Shown one piece after another: positions 866 through 41,604 of a DNA stretch of 41,604 nt. Below the pieces are notes generated by a model, which saw only the letters and a program-made list of their open reading frames with translations, made no database searches and had not been told where the DNA came from. The position numbers and the translations under genes were made by a program. The stretch lies in the NCBI GenBank assembly GCA_944351765.1, contig CALVPR010000011.1, positions 1 to 41,604 on the forward strand, read 5' to 3'. The DNA is from an uncultured Bacilli bacterium (GTDB lineage: Bacteria; Bacillota_I; Bacilli_A; RF39; UBA660). The first letter of the stretch is position 1. The number at the start of each line of letters is the position of its first letter.

Positions 866-3166
866 TTATCTACAGCATTCGTTAATACTGTTTATCTTTT
901 CAATACTTACACCTTCTCCTGAATGTCTACCACAACCAGGACAAACATCTCCAATTACCCCTACATATCCACATACAGGATCTCTATCTACTGGATGGTT
1001 AATTGCTGCATATCCCATATTGTTTTCTTTCATAAGTCTTACAATTTGTTCAAATGCTTCAACATTATTAGCAGTATCTCCATCTAATTCAATATAACTT
1101 ATGTGTCCAGCATTAGTAAATGCATGATATGGAGCTTCCTTCTTTATTTTATCTACTACTGATATATTGTAATATACTGGAACATGGAATGAATTAGTAT
1201 AATATTCTCTATCAGTTACTCCTTTAATTCTTCCATATATTGCTTTATCAATACTAGTAAATCTTCCAGATAGTCCTTCTGCTGGTGTTGCTAAACAAGT
1301 AAAGTTTAAATTATATTGTTTGCAATATTCATCACATTTTTCACGCATAAATTTAACTATTTTAAGCCCTAATTTTTGAGCTTCTTCACTTTCTCCATGA
1401 TGTTTACCAATAAGTGCCTTTAAACATTCAGCAAGTCCAATAAATCCTATACTTAAAGTACCATGTTTAAGTATTTTTCTAAGTCTATCATTAGGCTTTA
1501 ATTTCTCACTATCTAACCATACACCTTGTCCTAGTAAAAATGGAAAATTATACATTTTACGACTACATTGAATTTCAAATCTTTCTAATAATTGATCTTT
1601 AACCATATCCATTAAATTACCAAGTTCTTCAAAGAAACCGTTTAAATCAGTTTTTTCATTAGTAATAATTCCATGTTTTATTCCTAATCTTGGCAAATTA
1701 ATTGTTGTAAATGATAAATTACCACGTCCTGGAGTTACTGCCTTATTAGGATCTGCCACATTAGCAAGTACTCTTGTACGGCATCCCATGTAACCTACTT
1801 CAGTAGTAAAGTCTCCTTCTTTATAATATTGCTTATTAAATGGTGAATCAATAAATGAGAAATTAGGGAATAACCTTTTAGCAGACACCTTACAAGATAA
1901 CTTAAACAAATCATAGTTTGGATCTTCTTTATTATAATTAACTCCTTCTTTAACTTTAAATATTGATATTGGAAATATTGGAGTTTCTCCCTTACCAAGT
2001 CCTGCATCTACTGATAATAAATAGTTTTTAGTAACCATTCTTCCTTCAGCAGAAGTATCAGTTCCAAAATTAATTGATGAAAACGGTACTTGAGCACCTG
2101 CTCTTGAATGCATTGTATTTAAATTATGAACAAATGCTTCCATTGCTTGATATGTCGCTCTATCTGTTTTAGCAAGTGCTGTTTCATAGGCTTTCTCAAA
2201 AATTCTCTTTACCTCTTTTGAATCTTTATAAATACTTTCAAACGTATCTATATCTAATTCAATACTAGTTAATTTATCTATTTCTTTAGCAACCTTATCC
2301 ATATTTACAAAACTAATAAAATCTGTAAAATCTAATAACTCATACATTGATTGCTTAAATTGCTTTTTAAATGTCATTAGTACGCCCGGTGCTAAATAAT
2401 AATCAAAAGCCGGTATACTTTGACCACCATGTTGATCATTCTGATTAGATTGAATTGCAATTGCAGCAAGTGCACTATAAGACATAATATCTTTCGGTGG
2501 TCTTAAATGTCCATGTCCCGTTGAAAAACCATTTTTAAATAATTTATTCAAATCTATTTGCATACATGTTGTTGTACCCATTGGCAAGAAATCCATATCA
2601 TGAATATGAATATCTCCAGAATCATGTGCTTCTGCATATTTTTTCTTCATTAAGTATGCTTTAGCAAATTCTTTAGATACAGTTGAACCATATTGCAACA
2701 TTGTTCCCATTGCAGAGTTTCCATCAATGTTAGCATTTTCTCTTTTACTATCTTCTTCACTAGCACTCTTAAGTCCTAATCCTTCAATTGACTTTAAGAA
2801 TTTATGCATTTTCTTTTCGTCTGCAAAAGCTTGTCTTGATGCCGCTCTTCTTTCTCTATATTCTGAAAAAGATTCATAAACATCATCATAATTATTTTTC
2901 TTAAGTTCATCTTCAATTAAATCTTGAATCTCTTCAATTTTAATTTTATCTATATTATTTGAAACAAATTCTTTATCAATTCTTTTAATTACTTTTTGAT
3001 AAATCTTTTGAATATCTTTCTCATTATATTTTTTTTCTTCTTCCGTAATTACACTGTCAAAACCTTTTTTAATAGCTACTGCTATTTTACTGCCATCAAA
3101 ATCTACTTTTTTTCCATTTCTTTTAACAACAGTAATTGCTAATATTTTTTCTTCAATATCAACCAT
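866..3166 (-). CDS. nrdD: anaerobic ribonucleoside-triphosphate reductase, large chain without its radical loop
   Basis: NrdD reduces ribonucleoside triphosphates to deoxy forms by glycyl-radical chemistry. The 766-residue protein starts with an ATP-cone (about residues 10-100, VVKRNGKKVDFD), followed by the NrdD barrel with conserved stretches such as TTTCMQIDLNKLF and GMGTTT-like loops. It ends in a zinc-ribbon-like tail with Cys732, Cys742 and Cys745 (CPGCG) and a terminal CC. The RxxGYL radical motif is absent from this chain and is found in the next small gene. The start at 3166 has the ribosome site AGAAGGAGTGAAATT. A sigma-A-type promoter sits just upstream. The order nrdD, radical polypeptide, nrdG forms one operon. 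Confidence 0.93.
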   Translation of the reverse strand: MVDIEEKILAITVVKRNGKKVDFDGSKIAVAIKKGFDSVITEEEKKYNEKDIQKIYQKVIKRIDKEFVSNNIDKIKIEEIQDLIEDELKKNNYDDVYESFSEYRERRAASRQAFADEKKMHKFLKSIEGLGLKSASEEDSKRENANIDGNSAMGTMLQYGSTVSKEFAKAYLMKKKYAEAHDSGDIHIHDMDFLPMGTTTCMQIDLNKLFKNGFSTGHGHLRPPKDIMSYSALAAIAIQSNQNDQHGGQSIPAFDYYLAPGVLMTFKKQFKQSMYELLDFTDFISFVNMDKVAKEIDKLTSIELDIDTFESIYKDSKEVKRIFEKAYETALAKTDRATYQAMEAFVHNLNTMHSRAGAQVPFSSINFGTDTSAEGRMVTKNYLLSVDAGLGKGETPIFPISIFKVKEGVNYNKEDPNYDLFKLSCKVSAKRLFPNFSFIDSPFNKQYYKEGDFTTEVGYMGCRTRVLANVADPNKAVTPGRGNLSFTTINLPRLGIKHGIITNEKTDLNGFFEELGNLMDMVKDQLLERFEIQCSRKMYNFPFLLGQGVWLDSEKLKPNDRLRKILKHGTLSIGFIGLAECLKALIGKHHGESEEAQKLGLKIVKFMREKCDEYCKQYNLNFTCLATPAEGLSGRFTSIDKAIYGRIKGVTDREYYTNSFHVPVYYNISVVDKIKKEAPYHAFTNAGHISYIELDGDTANNVEAFEQIVRLMKENNMGYAAINHPVDRDPVCGYVGVIGDVCPGCGRHSGEGVSIEKINSINECCR

Positions 3167-3198
3167 AATTTCACTCCTTCTATTTTTTTTACATTCTC

Positions 3199-3228
3199 AT
3201 TGTATTACAAATGCCATACATATGTCAA
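3199..3228 (-). promoter_or_regulatory. sigma-A promoter of the nrdD operon
   Basis: On the minus strand a perfect TTGACA (3223-3228) is followed after 18 bases by TACAAT (3199-3204), 33 bases before the nrdD start. No clear pair of NrdR boxes was recognised. The T-rich stretch at 3229-3466 on the plus strand carries an open frame of low-complexity sequence that I do not regard as a gene. Confidence 0.7.
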
Positions 3229-3466
3229 CACTTTTGTTCGTATTTTTTTATTTTTTTATTTTTTTGTTTTTTTATAAAAACTTTAAAAATGTAAAAGTTT
3301 GTTTCTTAAAAAAATACACATTTTCAAAAACGCATATATTTATTGATTTTCTTTATTTTTCAATGTATTCATTAATTATTGTTATTGTTTCTTTTTTCAT
3401 TTTTTATCATTTTTTTATTTTACATTTATTGTCATTTTATATTTTTAACCATCTTATACAAATGTT

Positions 3467-3504
3467 AAAAAGCAAGAAAACCGAACAGTTTATCTTGCTT
3501 TTTT
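3467..3504 (-). terminator. hairpin terminator after the 3563-5167 gene
   Basis: An 11-bp perfect stem (AAAAAGCAAGA with TCTTGCTTTTT) around a 15-base loop ends in a T run on the minus strand. It separates the membrane-protein gene from the nrdD promoter. T runs on both sides mean it could act in both directions. Confidence 0.8.
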
Positions 3505-3562
3505 ACCAATATACATCTATATATTATATACAATTTATAAATTACACGAACTAATATTTGTT

Positions 3563-5167
3563 CTAATTTATTTTCAATATATCAATAATTTCTTCTTCTT
3601 TAGCATAGCTAATATTTATTACACTACCATTATCAAGAAATGGTAATATATCACTACCAACATTAATTAAAGCCTTATACTTTTGTCCATTTGTATCTAT
3701 TATATAATAGTAACTATTCCCATTAATTAATGCCATATTAATTTTAAATATAGTAATATCTTTATTTACTAATGTATCTTCAGAATATTCACCAATAGTA
3801 GTAGTTAAATAATTATTAGCAGCTGTTTCTATTCCTAATGATGAATCAGTTACTACCACTTTTTGATAATCTGCAACATCTACAAATGCATACATTTTAA
3901 CTAGCCCAGCATTATCTTTTAAACTCATTAAATATGTTGGTTTTCCATTTAAATTAATTAAAAGTGGGAATGATGATTCATACTTCATTTGTTGAACTTG
4001 ACCTTCTGCAGAATCCATTGCTGAATATTCTTTTGCACCCGCTACTGAATAAAAGTGTGTCTCTTTTGTTCGCATATTACATAATATAAATCCAATATTA
4101 GATTCATCAGACACAACCGAAGTAATACCTGTATATAAATATACATCATCATTCATTACAGTATAATTATACCCTTCAGTAGTCATTACTACTCCTTTTT
4201 GTCCAAAAATAGAATTTAAATATCCATCTTGATATTGTCCCCAATCATCTACTTGTTCAATAATTAAATCAGCTTTATATACATGATCTACCCATGTAGG
4301 AACATCTTCTACTTTGTATTTTTTACTACTTCCTGTTATTGGATCTAATATAATAACTCCTGTTATTTCTTTTTTAACTCCTACCCCTTTATAAGTAACT
4401 GTAGGAATTATCCAATAAGGATTTCCTTCATTATCTATTTCAAAGTTTGCTTCATCAAATATTTCTGTTGGATAACTAAACCTTAATTTTCTTTCTAATT
4501 TTTCATTAAATAGAGCACTAGGCATATATTTCATACCTTTATCTAATTTTATTAAATTAGCTTCTCCATTTACAGAATTTACAGTAATATATCCTTTAAC
4601 ACCATCACTTCTATTAGTAAACCACTTAATTATAGAAGCATACTCTAATGGAGTAACCCTAATAATGTCATTATTATAATTTATTTGTGTATACAAATCT
4701 GATACACTAAACTGGCTTACAAGTTCAGGCATTTGACCCATTACCCTATCTCCTAGTTTCTGACTAGAATCTTTATCTAAAAGAGGTAATGCATTAAAAT
4801 TAACTTCACTTATATCATCAACAAAGTTTTTACTCTCATCAATTGTAATTCTTTTAGAATAACTTTTAGCATTAAATAATGGTGATACGATTATATTAGT
4901 AAGTACTATTAATACAAATATACCCATTACTACTAATACTGATATACTTTGTTTTCGAAAATCATTAGTATTAGTAACAATAAAATCTCTTACACTAGTT
5001 ATATTAGCAAGTCCTATAAACTTATAAAATACAAATATAAATAATAAATAAAACCAAAAACTAGCATCATGTATATTTAACGGTGGTAATGTAATATAAA
5101 ACACTATTAATGCAAATATAATTGTTAAAACAATTCTAATAATCAATTGCTTATTCTTATCTTTCAT
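3563..5167 (-). CDS. membrane-anchored protein with a large exported domain, function unknown
   Basis: A 534-residue protein. Three hydrophobic helices at the N terminus (about residues 9-27, 37-54 and 73-95) are followed by about 430 residues of soluble, beta-rich, repetitive sequence (for example YITVNSVNGEANLIKLDKG and GVIILDPITGSSKKY) that should lie outside the membrane. I do not recognise the family and no catalytic motif stands out. The tail domain has aromatic-rich beta strands of the kind seen in PepSY-like or lipid-binding extracellular domains, but this is only an impression. The start is the ATG at 5167, six bases after AGAAGG. A TTG two codons earlier lies in the spacer. It has its own promoter and terminator, so it appears to be a single-gene transcript. 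Confidence 0.75.
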   Translation of the reverse strand: MKDKNKQLIIRIVLTIIFALIVFYITLPPLNIHDASFWFYLLFIFVFYKFIGLANITSVRDFIVTNTNDFRKQSISVLVVMGIFVLIVLTNIIVSPLFNAKSYSKRITIDESKNFVDDISEVNFNALPLLDKDSSQKLGDRVMGQMPELVSQFSVSDLYTQINYNNDIIRVTPLEYASIIKWFTNRSDGVKGYITVNSVNGEANLIKLDKGMKYMPSALFNEKLERKLRFSYPTEIFDEANFEIDNEGNPYWIIPTVTYKGVGVKKEITGVIILDPITGSSKKYKVEDVPTWVDHVYKADLIIEQVDDWGQYQDGYLNSIFGQKGVVMTTEGYNYTVMNDDVYLYTGITSVVSDESNIGFILCNMRTKETHFYSVAGAKEYSAMDSAEGQVQQMKYESSFPLLINLNGKPTYLMSLKDNAGLVKMYAFVDVADYQKVVVTDSSLGIETAANNYLTTTIGEYSEDTLVNKDITIFKINMALINGNSYYYIIDTNGQKYKALINVGSDILPFLDNGSVINISYAKEEEIIDILKIN

Positions 5168-5189
5168 AATCAACCTTCTTTCTATATAT

Positions 5190-5218
5190 ATTATAAATTA
5201 TTTATCTATATATTACAA
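5190..5218 (-). promoter_or_regulatory. promoter of the 3563-5167 membrane-protein gene
   Basis: TTGTAA (5213-5218) and TATAAT (5190-5195) on the minus strand are separated by 17 bases, 22 bases before the ATG. The 30-bp palindrome at 5218-5247 abuts the -35 box, so it may be both the upstream terminator and a binding site. Confidence 0.55.
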
Positions 5219-5247
5219 TAACCAATACATAATTATGTATTGGTTAT
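5218..5247. repeat. 30-bp perfect palindrome
   Basis: ATAACCAATACATAA is followed directly by its exact reverse complement. It lies downstream of the surface-protein gene and touches the -35 box of the next gene. It could be a rho-independent terminator with a weak T tract or a dimeric operator; the sequence does not decide. Confidence 0.6.
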
Positions 5248-5274
5248 CTTATATTTAATTATCCACATGGCTTT

Positions 5275-5339
5275 CCTAGAGAAGTATTTCATACTTCCCT
5301 AGGATGAGGAATAGAAGACTTACGCCTTCTATATTCCTC
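5275..5339 (-). terminator. two tandem hairpins after the variable surface-protein gene
   Basis: Just downstream of the stop at 5358 the minus strand can form two stems. One is at 5306-5339 (GAGGAATA...GAAG, with a 2-base bulge and 8-base loop). The other is at 5275-5303 (CCTAGGGAAGTAT with ATACTTCTCTAGG around the loop GAA, one G-U pair). Neither is followed by a real T tract, so simple termination is uncertain. Structured elements downstream of DGR variable regions are known to assist mutagenic homing, which is why their position is noted. Confidence 0.5.
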
Positions 5340-5357
5340 TTTTGTTTTTATTGTGTC

Positions 5358-6914
5358 TTATCCCAAAGTAAATGGATTTCCAGAAGTCCCATCTCCTCCA
5401 GTAATTTCTACTGTTGATTTTAGATAAAGGACTGGGGAAGCGGAGTTGCGGGAGCTGCTCGCGCCGTTGATGTTAACGAGACCCGTCGTGCCCACATCAA
5501 AGACGCGATACGAGTAACTGGAGATCGGAGTAAGAGTCCACTGATATAAACTAGAATTATATAAATAATCATTATTTTTACAATCACTATAACTGGAACT
5601 ACTCCATCTAAATAATTCTTTTGCTAAACAAGATGCTCTATTTGTGGTTGTTCCTCCACTTGTTGCATAGCCATAGTCAGATGGATACATTAGTCCTATT
5701 TTACCTACCCAATAGGTTGGACGACCACTATATACTTTTGTTCCTCTTTCATATCCGTAAAAGTGACTAGCTAGTCCATTGGATGCGCTTGTAAATGATG
5801 CAGTTCCTCCTAGGTTCCAGACAGCATCTCCTATTAAAGATTTTGCTTCCTCTGTAAGCCCCGTTGCACTAAAATCACAACTCTTTGTAGCACCATTTTG
5901 TCCACTTGGACAAGTACCACTTGTTCTATTCCAGTATGCACCATTATTTAACACTTCCATTAATGCACTATCAGTCCAGTCATTACTTCCATATTCTGAA
6001 GTAGAAGATCCAGTTCCTAATGGTTTGTTATCCCAAGACATAGTACCTATTCGCTCATTTCTTATTATTTTAAGTCTTTTTTCTAATTGACCATTCTCAC
6101 TAGACTTTACATCAAATACTCCGATTATTCTCCATAATTCATTATTAAATGATACATAGTTATTAGGATCCGCTCCCATATATCTTACATTACCATCTGG
6201 ATCATCATTATTCATTGTTTCTGGATTTTTCACTAGTAATGATTCTATATATTCTGAAGCATTCATTCCTACTTCTCTTATTAAAGCTTCTTTACCTTTT
6301 GTATACAATACAGTCTCTATCTTACCAGAAATGCTTTTATTTAACATATTAGATTGATCCATATCTTCTGTACAAGTAGATATATCTCCTGGGCATGATT
6401 CACTTATCCATATTCTAAATTCATAACTATCTGGAGTGCTACTATTATTAGGTAAATCTTGTTGTATTTCAGTAAGCCATAATTTACCATCTTTCATAGA
6501 GTCAAACCATGGTGAAAAACTACCACTAGATATTACCACACCATTCTTTTCTAATTCCCATTTTAAATACTCACTTTTTAGTTCACTATCTATTTGTAAA
6601 TCAGATAATATTACATCATATATTATTGGAATATCTGGATTACTACTAGATCCTTTTACTGTAAAATTAATACGCATTACATTTTCATTATTAGTATCTA
6701 CTGAATCATCTGTTATAGGCATTAAATTTGCTGTAGGTAGAGTTAAACTTCCTGTATAATCGACTGCCAACTGTGCTGTATCTACATTTACATTAATACT
6801 ATCCATAACATAACTAACGGCAAATGTAACTCCTATTATTCCTAACATAATAACTATTATTTCAAATATAATAAACTTTGTATTATTCTTTTTTATATTA
6901 TCTATATTATCCAT
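5358..6914 (-). CDS. membrane-anchored surface protein with a DGR-like hypervariable C terminus
   Basis: A 518-residue exported protein. One hydrophobic helix (about residues 14-36) is followed by a beta-rich region (about 40-205) and then a C-terminal domain (about 220-518) with many Trp, Ser, Tyr and Gly residues. That domain resembles the DUF6273/FGE-like domains found in bacterial surface proteins (ends in SPVLYLKS). Function is unknown; a ligand-binding or attachment role is a guess. Codons 463-496 (5427-5528) are about 59% GC by hand count and rich in NNC codons, in a gene otherwise using A/T-ending codons. This is the pattern left by adenine mutagenesis of an AAC-rich DGR template. No reverse transcriptase or template is in the window, so the DGR would act from elsewhere. 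The ATG at 6914 is preceded by GGAAGAGGGATATC. It has its own promoter. Confidence 0.8.
   Translation of the reverse strand: MDNIDNIKKNNTKFIIFEIIVIMLGIIGVTFAVSYVMDSINVNVDTAQLAVDYTGSLTLPTANLMPITDDSVDTNNENVMRINFTVKGSSSNPDIPIIYDVILSDLQIDSELKSEYLKWELEKNGVVISSGSFSPWFDSMKDGKLWLTEIQQDLPNNSSTPDSYEFRIWISESCPGDISTCTEDMDQSNMLNKSISGKIETVLYTKGKEALIREVGMNASEYIESLLVKNPETMNNDDPDGNVRYMGADPNNYVSFNNELWRIIGVFDVKSSENGQLEKRLKIIRNERIGTMSWDNKPLGTGSSTSEYGSNDWTDSALMEVLNNGAYWNRTSGTCPSGQNGATKSCDFSATGLTEEAKSLIGDAVWNLGGTASFTSASNGLASHFYGYERGTKVYSGRPTYWVGKIGLMYPSDYGYATSGGTTTNRASCLAKELFRWSSSSYSDCKNNDYLYNSSLYQWTLTPISSYSYRVFDVGTTGLVNINGASSSRNSASPVLYLKSTVEITGGDGTSGNPFTLG
5427..5528 (-). other. candidate DGR variable region
   Basis: The 34 codons here hold 60 G/C in 102 bases, against well under 35% around them. 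About half are NNC: ATC, TAC, CGC, GGC, CTC, AAC, AGC, as expected if template AAC codons had their adenines replaced. Interspersed codons without A (TCC, GTC, GTG, GTT, GCG, GCT) would be the fixed positions. It lies near the C terminus, the usual place. Alternatives are a recombined cassette or a recently acquired segment. Confidence 0.6.
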
Positions 6915-32893: not shown

Positions 32894-33979
32894 TTATTTT
32901 TGATATTTACTTATATTTAAAAGTATTCCCATTGATACTAAAGTAATTAATAATGATGAACCACCATAACTTAAAAATGGAAGTGTAACTCCTGTTACTG
33001 GTATTAATCCTACTACCACCATTAAATTTAAAAGTGCTTGAAAAGAAAGTCCAAAAGTTATTCCAAAAGCTAAAAATTTACCAAATTTATCTTCCGAGTT
33101 TATAGCTATTTTAAATCCCCTATATATAATGGTAATAAATAAAGATGCTACTATTAATATTCCCACAAAACCAAATTCTTCACTAATAATTGAAAAAATA
33201 AAGTCTGTTTGAGGTTCTGGTAAATAGAAGTGTTTTTGGATGGAGTTGCCAAATCCTAATCCAAGTAATCCACCTGGACCAATAGAATATAAAGATTGTA
33301 TTATTTGGAATCCACTTCCTAAAGGATCAGTCCAAGGATTTATAAATGATAATATTCTTTTTAATCTATATGGAGCCATTATAACTAAGATGACTACTCC
33401 AATTAAACCTAATATTCCTATTTTTACAAAAAATCCCATTTTTACTCCACTTACAAAAAGCGATACAATTATAGTCATAACTATTACTACACCAGTTCCA
33501 AAGTCTGGTTGTAACATAATAAGTCCAAATACTAATAATAGTATTCCAAGTATTGGAAACACTCCCTTTTTTATATCTTTTAATAACTTTTCATTATGTG
33601 CTAAATACTTCGAAGTAAATATTATTAAAGCTAGTTTTGTAAATTCACTAGGTTGTATTCCTAAAGAACCTATACCAAACCAACTTCTAGAACCATTTCT
33701 TATTGTTCCTATTCCCGGTATTAATACTAATATAAGAAGTAAAAAGCAAACACCAAAAATTATGTTTGCTTTGTTTAAATACTTTATATAAGGTATATTT
33801 GCTACTATTATCATTATTACATATCCTACTATTAAAAATATTGCTTGTGATTTCAAAAATTTATATGGATCATTAAATTTATATTCTGCCCAAACATATG
33901 AAGAAGAATATATCATAAGAAGTCCAAATAAAGAAATTATAATTATGGCTATTAATAATAGATAATCTACCTTTTTCAT
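32894..33979 (-). CDS. FtsW/SpoVE-type peptidoglycan glycosyltransferase (SEDS)
   Basis: A 361-residue SEDS-family polytopic membrane protein that polymerises lipid II into glycan strands with a partner class B penicillin-binding protein. It shows about ten hydrophobic segments and the family motifs, such as NGSRSWFGIGSLGIQPSEF, LLQPDFGT-like MLQPDFGTGVV, GLGFGNSIQKHFYLPEPQTDFIFS and the terminal PVTGVTLPFLSYGGSS. It could serve division (FtsW) or sporulation (SpoVE); sequence alone does not decide. The start at 33979 has AAAGGGGGAT upstream, 11 bases after the mraY stop. The order penicillin-binding protein, mraY, ftsW/spoVE is a compact dcw cluster. Confidence 0.93.
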   Translation of the reverse strand: MKKVDYLLLIAIIIISLFGLLMIYSSSYVWAEYKFNDPYKFLKSQAIFLIVGYVIMIIVANIPYIKYLNKANIIFGVCFLLLILVLIPGIGTIRNGSRSWFGIGSLGIQPSEFTKLALIIFTSKYLAHNEKLLKDIKKGVFPILGILLLVFGLIMLQPDFGTGVVIVMTIIVSLFVSGVKMGFFVKIGILGLIGVVILVIMAPYRLKRILSFINPWTDPLGSGFQIIQSLYSIGPGGLLGLGFGNSIQKHFYLPEPQTDFIFSIISEEFGFVGILIVASLFITIIYRGFKIAINSEDKFGKFLAFGITFGLSFQALLNLMVVVGLIPVTGVTLPFLSYGGSSLLITLVSMGILLNISKYQK

Positions 33980-33990
33980 ATATCCCCCTT

Positions 33991-34983
33991 TTATAACCAA
34001 ACTCCATATATAAGAGCCATTAAACATAAGATAAATCCTACTATCCAAAATAGTTTTACAATATCTGTTTCACTCCATCCCAATCTTTCAAAATGATGAT
34101 GAATTGGAGTCATTAAAAATACTTTTCTTTTAAATATTACTACTGAAGTTATCTGAATTATTACTGTTAGTGTTTCTATTACAAAAACTCCTCCAATAAC
34201 GGCTAACGATAATTCATGAGAAGTAAGAATTGCTATTGTCGCTAGCGTTGCTCCTAAAGTTAAACTTCCGGTATCACCCATAAACACTTTTGCTGGATGG
34301 GTATTATATACTAAAAATCCCATTATACATCCTACTAATATAAAACAGAAAATACCAATATCTTGATAACCTACTATCCAACTACTTCCCCAAGCCATTA
34401 AGCCAAATGCTACAAATCCTATAGCAGATAGTCCACCCGCAAGTCCATCTAATCCATCAGTTAAATTAACAGCATTAGAAGCTCCGACTAATAAGAAAAG
34501 TATTAAAACTCCATAAAACCAGTTTAAATCCCATTCTAAATTTAGTAAAGTTACACGAAGTACAGAATCTCCACTTCCAAATTCTCTATACAGTATATAA
34601 AATACTAATGCCACAATAAATTGTAATATTAACTTTTGAAATTGGGTTAGTCCTTTATTTCGATTCTTCTTTAGACTGATGTAATCATCTAAAAAACCAA
34701 TGCCACAATATGAGATAAAAACAAATAATATAATAAGTAAATTTACCGAATGTTCCATTTTATTTGTAATCAAAAGAGCAAATACAGTAATTAATGTAGG
34801 GATTACAAATATAAGTCCTCCCATTGTAGGTGTTCCTGCTTTAACTCTATGAGCATCTACATACACATTTATGTTTTGCCCACATTTAATTTTTTTTAAT
34901 AAAGGTATCATTATAAGGCCAAAAATTACTGTTATAATAAAACCAATCATTAAAGCAAATAAAGATTTTGTAAGTGTTAACAT
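33991..34983 (-). CDS. mraY: phospho-N-acetylmuramoyl-pentapeptide transferase
   Basis: MraY transfers phospho-MurNAc-pentapeptide to undecaprenyl phosphate, making lipid I at the inner membrane face. The 330-residue protein has about ten transmembrane helices and the active-site motifs AGTPTMGG, FLDDYI (Asp pair), NAVNLTDGLDGLAGG and the MTPIHHHFE loop. The start has GGAAGTGA upstream, with an extended -10 promoter nearby, so it can be transcribed even though the upstream penicillin-binding protein gene is interrupted. Confidence 0.97.
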   Translation of the reverse strand: MLTLTKSLFALMIGFIITVIFGLIMIPLLKKIKCGQNINVYVDAHRVKAGTPTMGGLIFVIPTLITVFALLITNKMEHSVNLLIILFVFISYCGIGFLDDYISLKKNRNKGLTQFQKLILQFIVALVFYILYREFGSGDSVLRVTLLNLEWDLNWFYGVLILFLLVGASNAVNLTDGLDGLAGGLSAIGFVAFGLMAWGSSWIVGYQDIGIFCFILVGCIMGFLVYNTHPAKVFMGDTGSLTLGATLATIAILTSHELSLAVIGGVFVIETLTVIIQITSVVIFKRKVFLMTPIHHHFERLGWSETDIVKLFWIVGFILCLMALIYGVWL

Positions 34984-35068: not shown

Positions 35069-35746
35069 TCAATTACCAAGCATAAGTCTTACTGTACTTC
35101 CTTCAGCAATTTGACTATCAGCTTCAGGTGACATCGATTTTACTATATCTCCACTACCAGTATATTCAATTTGAAAGTTTTTTAGCTCTTTTTTAGCATC
35201 ACTTACATTCATTCCTACTACATTAGGAAGACGATAATATTTTTGTTCATACCATTGATATATTTTATCAAGTCCACCTTCTGGTTTTTCTATATCAAGA
35301 GCAGTTATTGCATCTGTTAGTATTGCTTTTGCTATTGGGGCTGCTACTGTACCACCAAATTGTGTTACTCCTTTAGGATTATCTATTGCTACATACACTA
35401 TTACTTTAGGATCATTAGCAGGTAAAAATCCAATAAATGATACAATATAGTTTCCTACCATATAAGCCCCATTATCAACTTTTTGAGCTGTTCCAGTTTT
35501 ACCTCCTACTCGGTATCCTTCTATATAAGCATTTCTTCCAGTACCTAATGCAACAACACTTTCAAGTGCCATTCTAACAGTTTGGCTAGTATTCTCACTA
35601 ATAACTTTTCTCACTTCTGTTTTTTCATTTAATTTTATTATCTCTCCTGTTTCTGGCTCAGTTATACTTTTTACTATATATGGCTTATATAAAGTACCAC
35701 CATTAATTGCTGCACTAACTGCTGTTATTTGTTGTGAGGTACTCCT
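35069..35746 (-). pseudogene. 3' fragment of a class B penicillin-binding protein gene (spoVD/ftsI type), split by the mobile element
   Basis: About 225 codons remain, beginning at the junction (RSTSQQITAVSAAINGG) and reading to a normal stop. The fragment has the transpeptidase motif KTGT (VGGKTGTAQKV) and a C-terminal PASTA domain (RLPNVVGMNVSDAKKEL). The conserved SxxK and SxN motifs and the whole N-terminal half are missing and occur nowhere else in the window. A single PASTA domain and the position before mraY and ftsW/spoVE suggest SpoVD or a SpoVD-like FtsI. In family alignments the stretch just before the break is the FGQGIS-VTP loop, so the insertion point is inside conserved catalytic-domain sequence. 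The frame is otherwise intact, so excision of the element could restore the gene. Confidence 0.88.
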
Positions 35747-37370
35747 CTAAATGATACTTTTTGCCTAAATTATTACTGGATGCTTTTAATGTTGTTCCAG
35801 TTTTAAAAATAATATCTAATTGTATTTTTTTAGGATTATCTTCATCTTTGTTAACGATTATTTTTTCTACTAAAGAATTAAATACATCACTTAAGCATAA
35901 TTCATCTTCGATTGAATGTTCTAAATTTTCTCTTATGCTATTTATTTCTTTTTCAATTAAGTATTCATCAAACTTATTATTTTTTAAATTGTCTATTTTA
36001 TCTAAATATTCATTTAACTCTAAATTTAAACTATCTACTTGTTTTTTATAATCAATATTTTCTAAGTATCCATCCATTACAAGTTCTAATAACTTATCTT
36101 TTTTATTTTTTATAACTTCACATTTAGATTCTAAAACTTTTATTTCATTATCACTATTTTTAGATAATAAATAGCTTTTACATTCTTTAATAAGACTATC
36201 AAAGATTATTTTTTTATCAAGATATAGTTTAGATATGATACTTTTAAATAATTCATCTAACTCATGTTCAAATACTCTATTATTCGTACACCCTTTTAAA
36301 CTTTCTTTTCGATAAACCTGACATTCCCATACAGGATTATTTTTTCTTTTACCAGCACTATTCCTATGATAAGTAACATTATGAACACCACAATATATTT
36401 TTCCTGAATAAGTATAACGATTATGAAATATTGTTTTATCTTCTATTTTATTTAAATAACTTTTTTGTCTTTTTCTTAATTTGATATTGGCTCTTTCCCA
36501 TAATTCTTCTGATACAATTGGAGGTACTTTATCATAATCTTTATAAACAACCCAATCATCTTTATCTAATTTCTTTTTCTTTTTAGTTCGATAATCTAAT
36601 ACTTTTGTTTTATTACCACAATAATATCCTTTGTATTTAGGATTTTCAATTATTCTAGTAATAATAGTAGTATCTAATCTTTTACCAGTTTTCGTTTTAA
36701 ACCCACATTCATATAAATACTTTGATATTTTAGATAAACCATCATTTGTATTCGCATATCTATCATAAATTATTTTAATCATTTCAGCTTCTTTTTCATT
36801 AATAACTAATTTCCCATTATCTTTTTCATAGCCATAAATATTAGAGCATCCCAATACATTACCATTATCAATACTTCTTTTCATACCAAATGATACTCTT
36901 TCTGATAATTTTCGCACCTCATCTTGGGCAACACTTGCCATAATAGTAAGTCTTAGTTCGGAATCTGGTAGTATTGTATTAATATTATCATTTAAAAAAT
37001 ATACTCCAACTCCACTAGCAAGTAATTCTTGGGTAAATTTAATACTATCTAAGGTACTTCTTGAAAACCTTGATATTTCTTTTGTTAAAATTAAATCAAA
37101 CTTACCATTTTTAGCATCACTAATCATTTTTAAGAATTCTTCTCGTTTAAAAACTCTAGTGCCACTAATACCTTCATCGATATATGAACCTGCAAATTCC
37201 CATTTAGGAATTTTATTTATATAATCATTAAAGAAAGTTATCTGATTTTTTAAAGAATTTATTTGTTCATCTTTTTCAGTAGATACACGAGCATAAAAAC
37301 AAACTCTTAAATTTAATTCTTGAAGTGGTATTCCTTTCATTATATTATTCCTAACTGTATATAGATCCAT
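35715..37370 (-). CDS. large serine recombinase (integrase of the element)
   Basis: A 551-residue site-specific recombinase that integrates and excises the element through a serine-DNA intermediate. The N-terminal resolvase domain (about 20-165) has the catalytic Ser30 in YARVSTEKDEQ, then EGISGTR and the helix with SRFSRSTLD. Next come the recombinase domain (about 185-290, NPKYKGYYCGNKT), a zinc-ribbon-like domain (Cys near SGKIYCGVHN and WECQVY, GCTNN) and a coiled coil (about 400-470). The start has AGGGAGGGAAG upstream. The last eleven or so codons and the stop lie in the penicillin-binding protein gene, so the tail of the protein depends on where the element sits. Confidence 0.93.
   Translation of the reverse strand: MDLYTVRNNIMKGIPLQELNLRVCFYARVSTEKDEQINSLKNQITFFNDYINKIPKWEFAGSYIDEGISGTRVFKREEFLKMISDAKNGKFDLILTKEISRFSRSTLDSIKFTQELLASGVGVYFLNDNINTILPDSELRLTIMASVAQDEVRKLSERVSFGMKRSIDNGNVLGCSNIYGYEKDNGKLVINEKEAEMIKIIYDRYANTNDGLSKISKYLYECGFKTKTGKRLDTTIITRIIENPKYKGYYCGNKTKVLDYRTKKKKKLDKDDWVVYKDYDKVPPIVSEELWERANIKLRKRQKSYLNKIEDKTIFHNRYTYSGKIYCGVHNVTYHRNSAGKRKNNPVWECQVYRKESLKGCTNNRVFEHELDELFKSIISKLYLDKKIIFDSLIKECKSYLLSKNSDNEIKVLESKCEVIKNKKDKLLELVMDGYLENIDYKKQVDSLNLELNEYLDKIDNLKNNKFDEYLIEKEINSIRENLEHSIEDELCLSDVFNSLVEKIIVNKDEDNPKKIQLDIIFKTGTTLKASSNNLGKKYHLEEYLTTNNSS
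35730..35750. other. attachment-site junction between element and host gene
   Basis: Host coding sequence for the penicillin-binding protein can be followed up to 35746. The next in-frame codon outward is TAG, and beyond it the sequence belongs to the recombinase gene only. The crossover is therefore at or near 35735-35746 (GAGGTACTCCTCTA on the plus strand). The exact core needs the other end or an empty site. Confidence 0.7.
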
Positions 37371-37387
37371 ATATCTTCCCTCCCTAC

Positions 37388-37516
37388 TTAAACTTTAATT
37401 AATTTATTCATAACAAAAGAGTACATTTCTTCATTTATAAATTTATTTCGTTTTAAATACTCTATTAATTTTATTTTAATTTCTATTTCAATAGATTTAT
37501 TAATTATATTTTCCAA
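37388..37516 (-). CDS. SHOCT-like small protein before the recombinase
   Basis: A 42-residue ORF 17 bases upstream of the recombinase start. The TTG at 37516 is preceded by a strong AAGGAGG eight bases away. An in-frame ATG at 37537 lies before that site and is less likely. The sequence (IKLIEYLKRNKFINEEMYSF) resembles SHOCT-type helical pairs often encoded next to serine recombinases in Firmicutes. It may help control recombination direction, but this is inference from position. Confidence 0.65.
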   Translation of the reverse strand: MENIINKSIEIEIKIKLIEYLKRNKFINEEMYSFVMNKLIKV

Positions 37517-37551
37517 TATCTTATCCTCCTTCTTCATTTTATTTAATTAAA

Positions 37552-37581
37552 TAAAAAAAAGAACTTAAGCCCTTAAGTTCT
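37552..37581 (-). terminator. strong terminator upstream of the recombinase unit
   Basis: AGAACTTAAG and CTTAAGTTCT form a perfect stem with a two-base loop, followed on the minus strand by eight T. It ends the transcript of the 37645 gene and isolates the small protein and recombinase. Confidence 0.88.
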
Positions 37582-37591
37582 ACAAAATATC

Positions 37592-37634
37592 TGAAAACCT
37601 AAGTAGCTTAAAAAAATAAGATATTAAGTTTTCA
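37592..37634. repeat. inverted repeat next to the terminator
   Basis: TGAAAACCTAA (37592-37602) and TTAAGTTTTCA (37624-37634) are near-perfect inverted copies, 21 bases apart, between the terminator and the stop at 37645. The role is unknown; a recombinase or regulator site is possible. Confidence 0.4.
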
Positions 37635-37644
37635 AATAACAAAT

Positions 37645-38064
37645 TTAATTATTTTGATAATTCATAATATTTCTAGCAATAATATAACCATCAATATTAT
37701 CTGGTAATAAATTATTTTGTTCTAAAAACAAGAATAATTCCTTTAAAAAGATAATTTTATCTTCATAAGATAACTTTTCAAAATTAGATAACACATCTTC
37801 TATACCTTTTTGATAAAAACTATAAAATGAATTGTAATTATAATTTAGATAACATTTAATATCTTTAATTAAATTATTAGAATATCCAATTAGTAATGGA
37901 TTAAATATTTCTATATTAGTATTTTCTAAATTAGTATTACATGTATTTAAACTATTTATTAAATTGTTATCCCAAGAATCTAAAACATAACATATAAATT
38001 TCATTTGATTTTTCTTTTCTAAATTATCTAAACTTTCTATTAATTTTTTAATCCTTGCATTCAT
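37645..38064 (-). CDS. unknown element protein
   Basis: A 139-residue, Asn- and Leu-rich, probably all-helical protein without signal or membrane segments. No family recognised. It has a good ribosome site (GGAGG eight bases before the ATG at 38064; another in-frame ATG at 38079 overlaps it) and ends at a strong terminator. It lies between the recombinase unit and the helix-turn-helix gene. Confidence 0.65.
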   Translation of the reverse strand: MNARIKKLIESLDNLEKKNQMKFICYVLDSWDNNLINSLNTCNTNLENTNIEIFNPLLIGYSNNLIKDIKCYLNYNYNSFYSFYQKGIEDVLSNFEKLSYEDKIIFLKELFLFLEQNNLLPDNIDGYIIARNIMNYQNN

Positions 38065-38100
38065 TTTTATTACCTCCATTTAAACTATATTTAATGGCTA

Positions 38101-38162
38101 TTTAAGAAACATTATTTTTTAGTATTAATAACTATTCAAAAGAACATATAAAGTTTCTTAAA
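38101..38162. repeat. inverted repeat in an AT-rich gap
   Basis: TTTAAGAAAC (38101-38110) and GTTTCTTAAA (38153-38162) are perfect inverted copies. The surrounding gap 38065-38319 is extremely AT-rich and has no gene. An origin or regulatory region near the helix-turn-helix gene is possible but not shown. Confidence 0.4.
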
Positions 38163-38319
38163 ACCTAAATTACATATAAATAACACTATTTTCTTGTTTA
38201 ACTATTAATCACTTAAAAAAATAATTTTTGCAAGCATTTTTTATTAATTTTTTTACTTTTTGGTTTTATCGTTTTTATCAATTATTTTTAGTTATTAATA
38301 ATTAAGTTATTTATTACAT

Positions 38320-38649
38320 CTACTTATCCGTAAATGGTAAATCTATATTGCCTAACTGGGTATGTGGATTTTCATAAACTTCATAATCATAATAAAATTT
38401 ACCTAAAGAATTTTGTTTTCTAATAAGTTTTAAATATCCATTATATTTTAATTCTTTAATAGCAGTATCTACTGCCATTTTACCTTCCTTGCATAACGAA
38501 CATAATCCTTCATTACTAAAATGCCAATTATCAGGTAAACTTAAGATAATAGAAAATAAACCTTTAGCTTTTAAAGATAAATTCTTATCTTTTAAATGAT
38601 AGTTACTCATCTTAGTATAATTAAATAGTTTTTCTTCTCTATAAAACAT
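38320..38649 (-). CDS. helix-turn-helix protein, replication-initiator N-terminal type
   Basis: A 109-residue protein. The first 95 residues match the helix-turn-helix domain common in phage and plasmid replication or DnaD-like proteins (NYHLKDKNLSLKAKGLFSIILSLPDNW, then FSNEGLCSLCKEGKMAVDTAIKELKYNGYL). Such proteins normally go on for 100-200 more residues. Here it ends soon after the winged helix (YENPHTQLGNIDLPFTDK), so it is a short regulator or a truncated initiator. The start has AAAGGAGAAAGATT. Confidence 0.8.
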   Translation of the reverse strand: MFYREEKLFNYTKMSNYHLKDKNLSLKAKGLFSIILSLPDNWHFSNEGLCSLCKEGKMAVDTAIKELKYNGYLKLIRKQNSLGKFYYDYEVYENPHTQLGNIDLPFTDK

Positions 38650-38683
38650 AATCTTTCTCCTTTCTGCTAATTAATTTAAGACA

Positions 38684-38711
38684 TAAAAAAAAGCAACTAT
38701 TTAAAGTTGCT
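38684..38711 (-). terminator. terminator of the defence operon
   Basis: AGCAACT and AGTTGCT form a stem with a six-base loop and are followed on the minus strand by eight T. It lies 50 bases after the stop of the third operon gene and separates the operon from the helix-turn-helix gene. Confidence 0.88.
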
Positions 38712-38760
38712 CAATAAGTTCAAAACACTTTTCAATTTTCAATTGTACAATCAGATATAC

Positions 38761-39468
38761 CTATTTTTTTTGAGATTCGTTTATAGAACATTTATCCAGT
38801 TCTTTTATCAACAAATCAACATAGGAACAAAATTTAATTGCATCTTCTCTTGTACATTCGAATTTTAAACCATGATGTGTTGAATTTCTATAAACACCAA
38901 TTATTCCCTTAAATAATGCAGCCCATGCTTCTTGTTCTGCTTCATCTTTGCTAAACACTAATATTGTTTGTTCTAATTTAGAGTGAATTGCTTTAGAAAC
39001 TAAATTCATCCCTATCATTTTTGTATTTGTTAAATTAGCTTTCTCTTTTATACAATTTTCAAGAACTTGTGTTGCTTGATTAAATACCCTATCATAATGA
39101 TTGTCTGCCGATATTAAATCAACACATCTTTCTTTTAAATTTGTATCAGTTAATGAATTATATAAACCATTAATTTGATTATCACTTATTTTCTTAGAAA
39201 TATATTTTTTTTCTAAATATCTTTTTAATGGTTTGATGAGCATAATAATTTCTTTTTTTAAACAACCTGTAAAACAATATGAGTAAGTAGCAATCATATT
39301 GTTTTGAATTTTGTATCTCTCAAAGAATTGGTCATTTGTTAAGACAATTATATCGTCAATAATTCTATTGTATTGTTGTATAAATAAGACATCTATTACA
39401 TCATCTTGATATTCTATTGATTCTTCTATTCCCAATAAAACTTCATACAATTCTGAAATATTATTCAT
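38761..39468 (-). CDS. Ymh-family (TIGR02391-like) protein with a HEPN-like RX4H motif
   Basis: A 235-residue soluble protein. The N-terminal half (about 1-110) is helical and unrecognised. The C-terminal half (about 112-230) resembles the Ymh/TIGR02391 family: RCVDLISADNHYDRVFNQA, KEKANLTNTKMIGMNLV, then EQEAWAALFKGIIGVYRN. The segment R194-N-S-T-H-H199 fits the RX4-6H motif of HEPN ribonucleases, proteins that cut RNA in many toxin and defence systems. It starts 17 bases after the thsB stop, with GGAGTTGG upstream, and ends before its own terminator, so it is the third gene of the Thoeris-like operon. Whether it is part of the same system, an added effector or an unrelated Abi protein is not known. 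Confidence 0.7.
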   Translation of the reverse strand: MNNISELYEVLLGIEESIEYQDDVIDVLFIQQYNRIIDDIIVLTNDQFFERYKIQNNMIATYSYCFTGCLKKEIIMLIKPLKRYLEKKYISKKISDNQINGLYNSLTDTNLKERCVDLISADNHYDRVFNQATQVLENCIKEKANLTNTKMIGMNLVSKAIHSKLEQTILVFSKDEAEQEAWAALFKGIIGVYRNSTHHGLKFECTREDAIKFCSYVDLLIKELDKCSINESQKK

Positions 39469-39485
39469 TTACCAACTCCTATATA

Positions 39486-40007
39486 TTATGAATATATTTC
39501 AACAATTCCTAATTCTTCATACACTTCATCTTTATATATATAAGCACCTGTATCTTTTTTGTGTTTATGAATATTAAATTGTGATTCCCAATTTTCTAAA
39601 GCATACTGCATTATTTTGGAATTATAAGGAATATTTATAGTTAAATAATCGCCGAGCGTATTTTTTGGATATCTATCATTATCTACTTTTTTACTTTTAT
39701 TCAAGTTTACTACTATTATAGGTAAATTTAATGACATTGCTTGTTCCATTTCCCATTTTACAAATTTAGTTAAATATTTGGTATGTTCTCCTAATAAAAT
39801 TACAAATATTTTTGTATTTAATAGTCTTTCTCTTAATTGCCTTTTAATTGATTCTTCTTTACTAGAATCATATGCAGTGTTTAAATCATGAGCATCGTAA
39901 AAATTAAAATCCGTATTATCATTTTGTTTCCATGCTTTCATTAAATTGTAATATTTTATATCTGTGTCTCCATCAAAACACACATAAGTTTTGTTTCTAT
40001 AAGCCAT
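39486..40007 (-). CDS. thsB: Thoeris ThsB-like TIR-domain protein
   Basis: A 173-residue protein with the TIR-like (DUF1863/MTH538) fold of ThsB. Beta strand A is KTYVCFDGDTDIKYYNLMK, followed by FNFYDAHDLN, RLLNTKIFVILLGEHTKYLTKFVKWE and LNLPIIVVNLNK. Glu86 in KWEMEQA sits where TIR NADases have their catalytic glutamate. ThsB senses phage infection and makes a nucleotide signal from NAD; in the type II system the product reported is a histidine-ADP-ribose conjugate. Its ATG overlaps the end of the upstream thsA-like gene by 11 bases, so the two are co-translated. A short C-terminal extension (HKHKKDTGAYIYKDEVYEE) follows the fold. Confidence 0.85.
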   Translation of the reverse strand: MAYRNKTYVCFDGDTDIKYYNLMKAWKQNDNTDFNFYDAHDLNTAYDSSKEESIKRQLRERLLNTKIFVILLGEHTKYLTKFVKWEMEQAMSLNLPIIVVNLNKSKKVDNDRYPKNTLGDYLTINIPYNSKIMQYALENWESQFNIHKHKKDTGAYIYKDEVYEELGIVEIYS

Positions 40008-40833
40008 TTTTATACATCTCCTTTATTTTATATAAATTTATTTTCTTCACTAGTTCATTTGATAATATCATTGTTATTTTTGTTGGATATTTAAATTTAA
40101 TTTTACTAATCTTAAATGTCCAAATAATAATTTCAATTAATTCTTGATCATTAATTTCATATGCATCCGTAAATCTTGTTAATGAACTACTGCCAAACAA
40201 TGTAATAGACACACATCTATTTGCATAAATTTTATCTAAATTATCCCAAAAGTTCATTAAGAATTCTAAATATTCTTTTAATGATAAAATTGCCCTATTA
40301 TCATCAGTAAACTTTGTTAATGAAGTTAATAGGTAATCATCATATTCAACAATTTCACCAAGATTATATTGTTTTTTCTTTCCTGATTTTCTATTTTGAT
40401 TAATTGAAATTATTTTTTCTTCTAGTTGTTTCTCTATTTCGTCATCAAGTTTTTTCGTTTCATTTTTCAATATATTTTGAATAAATTTACCATTTAATGA
40501 ATTTTCAGCAATTAATTTATTATCAACTTTCGTATCAAAATATTCATTAAAATTTATAACCTTTAAATCATTACTATCAAAAATATTTCCAGATTTTATT
40601 TCAAATGTTGAACCATGAATAGATAAAGTAATATTTTTTATAGTATTCATTGTTATTAACGTATAACAATAGTAAATAATTGTTAATCCTAACCAAGTTA
40701 ATAATACGCTTATTTTATTATTACATATAAATTCACTATCAAATAAGGCAATTAAACTCAAAAAGCTACCAACCAGCATAAAGAAAGAACCAATTTTTTT
40801 TAATAATATTTTATCATAAAATTTTATTTTCAA
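39997..40833 (-). CDS. thsA: Thoeris type II ThsA-like effector: two membrane helices plus macro domain
   Basis: A 278-residue protein. Two hydrophobic helices (about 15-33 and 41-63) are followed by a macro-type domain with GNIFDSNDLKVINFNEYFDT (about 82-101), AENSLNGKFI, the KKQYNLGEIVEYDDYLL block and SITLFGSSSLTRF. This matches the ThsA macro domain of type II Thoeris, in which the TIR-made signal binds the macro domain and the protein disrupts the membrane, stopping phage growth. The TTG at 40833 is preferred as start, with GGGAAGTGA six bases upstream. The GTG at 40848 would lie almost at the transcript start. It is the first gene of the three-gene operon. Confidence 0.82.
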   Translation of the reverse strand: MKIKFYDKILLKKIGSFFMLVGSFLSLIALFDSEFICNNKISVLLTWLGLTIIYYCYTLITMNTIKNITLSIHGSTFEIKSGNIFDSNDLKVINFNEYFDTKVDNKLIAENSLNGKFIQNILKNETKKLDDEIEKQLEEKIISINQNRKSGKKKQYNLGEIVEYDDYLLTSLTKFTDDNRAILSLKEYLEFLMNFWDNLDKIYANRCVSITLFGSSSLTRFTDAYEINDQELIEIIIWTFKISKIKFKYPTKITMILSNELVKKINLYKIKEMYKNGL

Positions 40834-40858
40834 GCTATCACTTCCCACTTCATACGTT

Positions 40859-40867
40859 ATTATAACA
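40859..40867 (-). promoter_or_regulatory. extended -10 promoter of the Thoeris-like operon
   Basis: TGTTATAAT on the minus strand, 26 bases before the TTG start of thsA. No convincing -35 box is seen. The gap 40868-41088 shows no gene. Confidence 0.5.
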
Positions 40868-41088
40868 TTAAATTACTATAATTCGGCATTTAGTTTACAC
40901 AAAACATTAAAATTCGACTTATTTTTGACTAAATATTGGTTTATATTTTGTTTATTTTAAATAATTTTAATTATTGTAATAATCCTATTAATACATTTTT
41001 ATCATATTTTGATTATTATTATATTCAATTTTTTACCTATATTCCAATAAACATAAATAATATAGCTATTAATTTATTGAACTAAATT

Positions 41089-41154
41089 TTATCTTGTATT
41101 ATTATCTAATTCATCAATCTCTTTAATCGTTTTATCATTTACTTTTTCTAACAT
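41089..41154 (-). CDS. 21-residue ORF with a strong ribosome site, upstream of the defence operon
   Basis: MLEKVNDKTIKEIDELDNN and two more residues, preceded by a near-perfect AAAAGGAGGATATA. The ribosome site is among the strongest in the window, yet the frame is very short and charged. It could be a real micropeptide, a leader peptide, or the remaining start of a longer gene cut by deletion. It lies about 255 bases before thsA on the same strand. Confidence 0.4.
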   Translation of the reverse strand: MLEKVNDKTIKEIDELDNNTR

Positions 41155-41519
41155 TATATCCTCCTTTTGAATTCTTTAGACCCTTTTGAAGAATTACTCT
41201 AATGACAGTATAACTGCATATTTTGGATGGAATAAACCTAATTATATTCTCATACGAATCATTGAATTACATAATCACTAACTTTAAAATTTGTATGTAT
41301 ATACTCATTTTTTTAGCAAAAAATATATTCATAACAATTCAATACTATAAATTATAAACTTGTTATTAATTATTATTTTATCATTTATTTATGCTTCTGT
41401 TTTCATATTATAATTAGCTTTTTTATCTAGTATTGATTTAAATAATGATGCACTTTTAGGGTATTTTTAGTTTTTTTATATCAGAAATAGATACTTTTTC
41501 GAATGGGCATAAGAAGAAT

Positions 41520-41570
41520 GACACCACAATATAATTAATTGCTTATAATATATAGCAAATTAATGGTGTC
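41520..41570. repeat. large imperfect hairpin at the right edge
   Basis: GACACCA (41520-41526) and TGGTGTC (41564-41570) enclose a second inverted pair, ATTAATTGC and GCAAATTAAT. A further small palindrome, TTTTGCA/TGCAAAA, follows near 41578-41595. In the rest of 41155-41604 no gene is recognised. The pattern could be an old transposon end, a terminator or part of an element boundary. Confidence 0.45.
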
Positions 41571-41604
41571 TTACTATTTTTGCACTTGCAAAAATGATGC
41601 GCAT

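Follow-up and report, generated by a model that had tools for sequence, protein, structure and literature searches.

Why should a recombinase gene lie inside the coding sequence of a penicillin-binding protein, and can a gene divided in this way still serve its host? The question is raised by positions 35069–37370 of the DNA analyzed here (the window), a stretch of 41,604 nucleotides from an uncultured Bacilli bacterium. The window constitutes an entire contig, ending at position 41604, of a genome bin (G000) comprising 1.29 Mb in 64 contigs with 92.7% completeness; the right attachment site of any inserted element is therefore not visible within it. A class B penicillin-binding protein (PBP) is represented on the minus strand by its final 224 codons, which extend in frame from position 35069 up to a recombinase gene at 35715–37370. 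A sequence-only reading of this DNA had described the same arrangement and proposed that a serine-recombinase element splits a SpoVD/FtsI-type gene; both statements were borne out, with the gene resolved to spoVD and a large serine recombinase (LSR) placed at the junction.

The identity of the gene rests on profile comparison. The fragment (35069–35732, minus strand) encodes the 3' third of the gene, with the C-terminus of the class B PBP transpeptidase and the PASTA domain, and is cut at the QQITAVSAAINGG codons. It aligned to the C-terminal third of the SpoVD model TIGR02214 (positions 411–636), and an intact orthologue in a relative (L020) scored 745.6 bits against the cut-off of 688, meeting the criterion for SpoVD; the gene is thus spoVD and not ftsI. 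Identification as FtsI was rejected on the same match and because G000 carries a separate, intact ftsI-type gene of 728 aa on contig C21; the split gene does not meet the test for the sole or orthologous division class B PBP (FtsI/PbpB). The suggested count of class B PBPs accordingly revealed a second, distinct and undivided gene, and the interruption need not be lethal, as had been feared for a sole division protein. In three relatives of the same class (G046, G057, G059), a PBP of 719–754 aa and another of ~640 aa lie ~2–4 kb apart, an arrangement that resembles the proximity of ftsI (pbpB) and spoVD in Bacillus subtilis. The host flank in the window contains, directly downstream of spoVD in gene order, an mraY-type gene (33991–34983, minus strand; named by resemblance and position, with the same order in G003 and G026) and a spoVE-type SEDS gene (32894–34048, minus strand) that is intact here and split in relatives.

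The visible part of the intervening element spans 35735–41604 and runs on past the contig end. At its junction with spoVD lies the attachment core dinucleotide CA (TG on the plus strand; 35733–35734, minus strand), inferred by comparing the junctions of G002, G003, G026 and G028. The adjoining LSR (551 aa, minus strand) contains Resolvase, Recombinase and Zn ribbon domains and belongs to the site-1 type defined below. Its last six codons and stop (35715–35734) are supplied by host spoVD DNA, so the C-terminus of the recombinase would differ in an excised circle. Directly upstream is a 49-codon open reading frame (37388–37537, minus strand), aligned but diverged in the G003 and G026 elements, which is an untested candidate accessory or directionality factor. 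A 144-aa protein of unknown function (37645–38079, minus strand) and an HTH_36, phage replication-initiation-like protein (38320–38649, minus strand) are common to the G003 and G026 elements and, together with the LSR, form the core genes of site-1 elements. The cargo consists of a Hypoth_Ymh-domain protein (38761–39468, minus strand) and the Thoeris anti-phage pair, the TIR-like ThsB (39486–40007, minus strand) and the macro-domain ThsA (39997–40848, minus strand), whose adjacency and PADLOC scores (1.4e-89 and 1.6e-77) satisfy the test for this system. Compared with the G003 and G026 elements, the Thoeris pair (39486–40848) separates the HTH_36 gene from the region upstream of it (41472–41597). 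Cargo varies among elements, with AbiEi-like and metabolic genes in G003 and a Fic protein in G026. Apart from the integrase and the replication-like protein, no phage genes, and in particular no structural genes, were recognized by PHROGs and Pfam in the visible part of this incomplete element. A tRNA was considered as the target of the element and rejected.

The sequence-only reading further placed the 5' half of the gene beyond the element and named its absence from the genome as a refuting observation. Searches of the G000 bin with the Pfam dimerisation domain and an N-half profile indeed failed to find it, but in the sister species G002 the 5' half lies at a contig end, and the missing half in G000 is on this basis likely an assembly gap. 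The ftsZ neighborhood differs in G000 (ftsZ–rpsB) and therefore gives no help in placing that gap. What the window lacks is supplied by its relatives, which provide both flanks. In 60 relatives searched with the spoVD fragment, several genera were found to be truncated at the identical codon, while others encode an intact spoVD of ~640 aa; the N-terminal half, sought by profile, was recovered in most interrupted genomes. Both halves reside on one contig in G003, G026 and G025, separated by 13.8, 7.9 and 13.7 kb, respectively. Since the same codon is broken beside a related recombinase or element end in eight other family genomes, the split in the window is not a chance event.

Across the family, 35 of the 37 genomes contain spoVD (G011 and G015 do not); the gene is interrupted in 15, intact in 19 and, in G007, broken by overlapping contigs. 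The G007 break and a frameshift-like break at L103 were not counted as splits. Contig overlap was rejected as the source of the splits, given that single contigs span the elements of G003, G026 and G025 as well as the cotE element of G000, and that the G059 genome is itself one contig. Interruptions fall at three fixed sites: site 1 at VT[PA]I/QQITA, site 2 at SCN/PGF in the SxN motif, and site 3 at STFK in the SxxK motif. All three sites are occupied in G029, for which three of the four expected gene pieces were recovered. All seven genomes of the window's genus are interrupted, five at site 1 and two at site 2. A GTDB scan detected nine GenBank contigs from uncultured Bacilli cut at the same sites: CALVHX010000047.1, CANQGH010000028.1, CANQYA010000008.1, CASFCU010000060.1 and CADBYH010000010.1 at site 1; CANRBQ010000035.1 (with a 2.65 kb element) and CANQFH010000005.1 at site 2; and CALVZF010000022.1 and CANQRA010000003.1 (with a 2.8 kb element) at site 3. 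Among loci L112–L172, mostly from cultured Bacillus- and Paenibacillus-type species, the gene is uninterrupted for at least 380 codons upstream in 58 of 61; the remaining three are the site-1 contigs CASFCU and CADBYH and one frameshift-like break (L122). The smallest spoVD elements, ~2.7 kb in length, contain little beyond the recombinase (L097, 6790–9445; L105, 6877–9635).

Where both flanks are available, the attachment sites can be compared directly. At site 1, the core common to both junctions is CAACAA in G003 and TACAACAA in G002, and G026 and G028 narrow it to CA; the cores of G026, G028 and spoVD site 2 were read by eye. Crossover at this core would yield ...SVTAIQQITAVSAA... in frame, restoring the conserved sequence. 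Together, the two ends of the element make up an imperfect palindrome (GACAAC...GTTGTC), a feature usual for LSR attP sites. In spoVE, frame-restoring cores of 13 bp (GTAACAGGTGTAA), 11 bp (ACAGGTGTAAC) and 7 bp (CAGGTGG) were identified in G029, G059 and G014, respectively. For spoIVA, cotE and dacF, the automatic search did not single out one core, which was assigned by eye or not at all. Of the features used to define sporulation-gene intervening elements, insertion within the coding sequence of a sporulation gene and a site-specific recombinase adjoining the junction are both met in the window; a short core at both ends with frame restoration is met in relatives with both flanks, the window having only one. 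Contigs of G002, G005, G006, G008, G012 and G029 stop 34–70 bp past the att junction, as expected if the element ends are also present in another setting, for instance in a circle, although other repeats could have the same effect.

A divided gene may simply be a dead one, in a lineage that is losing sporulation and in which insertions are neutral. The complete absence of spoVD from G011 and G015 and the small size of these genomes could be read in this way. The split halves, however, are under purifying selection. Comparison of close interrupted genomes gave dN/dS values for the 3' half of 0.02 (G000–G001), 0.04 (G000–G002) and 0.14 (G000–G004), and for the 5' half of 0.04 (G002 at site 1 versus G005 at site 2); no stop codons occur in the halves compared, and reading frames are open in all recovered pieces. 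With dN/dS of 0.02–0.14 and no stops, the interrupted gene remains functional by the selection criterion. Exact restoration at the att sites and conservation of spoIVA, spoVAD, cotE and spoVE likewise count against decay, which we regard as very improbable and as already contradicted. The fragment is therefore not the relic whose demonstration would have overturned the sequence-only reading, and the resemblance it drew to skin-type elements holds by anatomy and selection, excision itself not having been seen. The halves might alternatively be made separately and function as a split protein, or the 3' piece might have a role of its own, and the fragment does possess an in-frame GTG start. This explanation is scarcely credible, because the cut falls inside the transpeptidase fold and the three sites used across genomes would give different pieces.

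The preference for sporulation genes extends beyond spoVD. Five gene families, namely spoVD, spoVE, spoIVA, cotE and a dacF-like gene, are split in 33 of 151 copies. Splits in family genomes affect spoVE in six, spoIVA in five (with two sites in G002), the dacF-like S11 gene in five and cotE in two, including a complete single-contig cotE element in G000; the spoVE of G013 and the spoIVA of G016, which lies at a contig edge, were excluded as ambiguous. The S11 gene that is split is inferred to be dacF-like since intact copies of that paralogue lie near spoVAD in relatives. In the same genomes, with contig edges set aside, all control genes were unsplit: ftsI-type (36/36), the two other SEDS paralogues ftsW/rodA (68/68), other S11 genes (33/33) and spoVAD (27/27). 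Comparison of the 33 splits in 151 copies with none in 137 vegetative paralogues (ftsI, ftsW/rodA and other S11) gave a Fisher p of 9e-11, which serves only as a guide because the counts were made by hand and the genomes share ancestry and are not independent. The LSRs are closest to same-site LSRs of other genera (70–85% for site 1, 77% for cotE, 76% for dacF and 68–100% for spoIVA); same-site similarity is 46–48% for spoVE even across families and 50% for site 3. G000 itself contains ten LSRs, five of which abut a gene fragment at their 3' end, the fragments belonging to spoVD, spoIVA, cotE, a D-Ala-D-Ala carboxypeptidase and a Ca-type P-ATPase. Some LSRs adjoin genes not known to be sporulation-specific, such as those for a Zip transporter, a SWIM-like protein and the Ca ATPase, which weighs against the reading favored below.

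Taken as a whole, we consider it probable, short of being established, that the spoVD elements are skin-type intervening elements excised by their LSR when the host sporulates, with spoVD rejoined in frame. A mobile element bearing a site-specific LSR would have integrated into a fixed attachment site inside spoVD, at little cost given that spoVD is not needed in growth. At sporulation, the LSR and an as yet unidentified directionality factor would recombine attL and attR, releasing the element as a circle and rejoining the gene; this would presumably occur in the mother cell, with the element thereby retained in the spore. With sister elements at fixed sites in spoVD, spoVE, spoIVA, cotE and dacF-like genes of relatives, several excisions would probably be needed to sporulate, compared with only one or two in the hosts known so far. 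Excision, its timing and its cell type are inferences here, as is sporulation of the hosts, which is predicted from the presence of SpoIVA, SpoVAD, CotE, SpoVD and SpoVE in the family and has not been observed. No sigmaE-like (mother-cell) promoter was recognized upstream of the LSR, and four search patterns did not find the attP circle in IMG/VR. That database yielded one close LSR relative, beside a dacF fragment; on this contig (3300022660_002863, L280), the dacF-type fragment lies between two serine recombinases at 2451–6134. In B. subtilis, dacF is a forespore gene, which would fit poorly with excision confined to the mother cell if the split S11 gene is dacF.

The lack of any direct sign of regulated excision leaves room for ordinary integrative elements that occupy a conserved attB in growth-dispensable genes, excise rarely or upon other induction, and render their carriers non-sporulating while element-free cells keep the genes under selection. 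Sites in conserved codons would suit any integrase, and defence and metabolic cargo and movement between species are also in keeping with this explanation. Between G000 and G002, identity reaches 99% over the spoIVA element, compared with 82–85% for adjacent host DNA, a difference that points to recent horizontal transfer. Against such elements, however, stands the window's genus, in which each of the seven genomes has an interrupted spoVD yet retains spoIVA and spoVAD, and six retain cotE. Furthermore, cells free of elements would be rare where a genome carries several of them, and the forespore gene spoVAD is not used as a site. We therefore judge ordinary integration unlikely, though it retains appreciable weight beside developmental excision. 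A stronger form of the latter, in which spore formation in this lineage depends on a prior set of independent excisions that assemble the sporulating genome from pieces, with recombinase families specialized on single codons of spore genes, is in our view evenly balanced between true and false. Its extent is indicated by at least four split sporulation-type genes in G000 and, in a relative, by as many as three elements within a single gene.

Comparable systems are known. The skin element in sigK of B. subtilis and Clostridioides difficile likewise carries a serine recombinase, splits a sporulation gene and restores its frame upon excision (PMC4191935, PMC5025042); its target is a sigma factor gene, whereas here a late enzyme gene, spoVD, and many other genes are involved, with several sites per gene. 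The gin element in gerE of Bacillus cereus ATCC10987 is a non-phage element with serine recombinases and a short att core (PMC5595907), residing in another gene and lineage; the elements described here usually have one LSR at the junction and defence cargo. Site-specific recombinase elements also occupy yabG of Clostridium botulinum (yin), spoVFB (vfbin), spoVR (vrin) and spsM (SPbeta), each a single element in a single gene, unlike the present ones (PMC10747680, PMC4191935). ICEBs1 has similarly been found inside spoVD, as a laboratory-selected secondary site from which excision was undetectable (PMC3715440), but it is an unrelated element. With this laboratory case excepted, no report of elements in spoVD, spoVE, spoIVA or cotE was found in the literature searched, which did not cover subscription papers and preprints. 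New features are the targets, the presence of multiple elements within one genome and even within one gene, and the host lineage, which is probably order RF39. In heterocystous cyanobacteria, the fdxN element is excised by the LSR XisF, and the genes so restored serve only terminally differentiated cells. XisF is among the NCBIfam matches of the window LSR, far below the cut-off; phylum, genes and development all differ, and the extent would be comparable to that of heterocyst excisions if sporulation needs a set of them.

RF39, an uncultured Bacilli order, has been predicted to sporulate, with spoVD, spoIIE, spoIIAB and others reduced or absent (PMC10868615). If the present genomes belong to RF39, an order assignment inferred from their class, size and lack of cultured members, split genes would explain the spoVD part of that reported reduction or absence, a warning that split genes are undercounted when spore genes are scored as present or absent. 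If true, programmed excision would be a general sporulation feature of an uncultured gut lineage and not a peculiarity of a handful of genes in Bacillus and Clostridium. The elements additionally provide a rich set of LSRs whose natural target sites are precise to the codon, and an example of how reduced genomes can accommodate mobile elements that bear defence cargo.

Several other arrangements were observed around related recombinases. In G059, a single contig of 2.5 Mb from another family, the spoVE halves are ~47 kb from each other and point in opposite directions, and an LSR lies at one end (L290, C1 861835–862848; L291, C1 908301–910033), so recombination would invert the intervening DNA, not excise it, yet restore spoVE. 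The Ca-type P-ATPase is cut just before its phosphorylation motif by near-identical LSRs in two species (L198, G000:C2 13.7–15.5 kb; L273, G004:C41). LysM domains are cut at one shared motif by related LSRs in three genera (L231, L250 and L258). Finally, a collagen-like GPT-repeat gene of the exosporium BclA kind lies near an LSR in G000 (L010, C21 3048–4085), and a similar gene abuts an LSR in G012 (L249).
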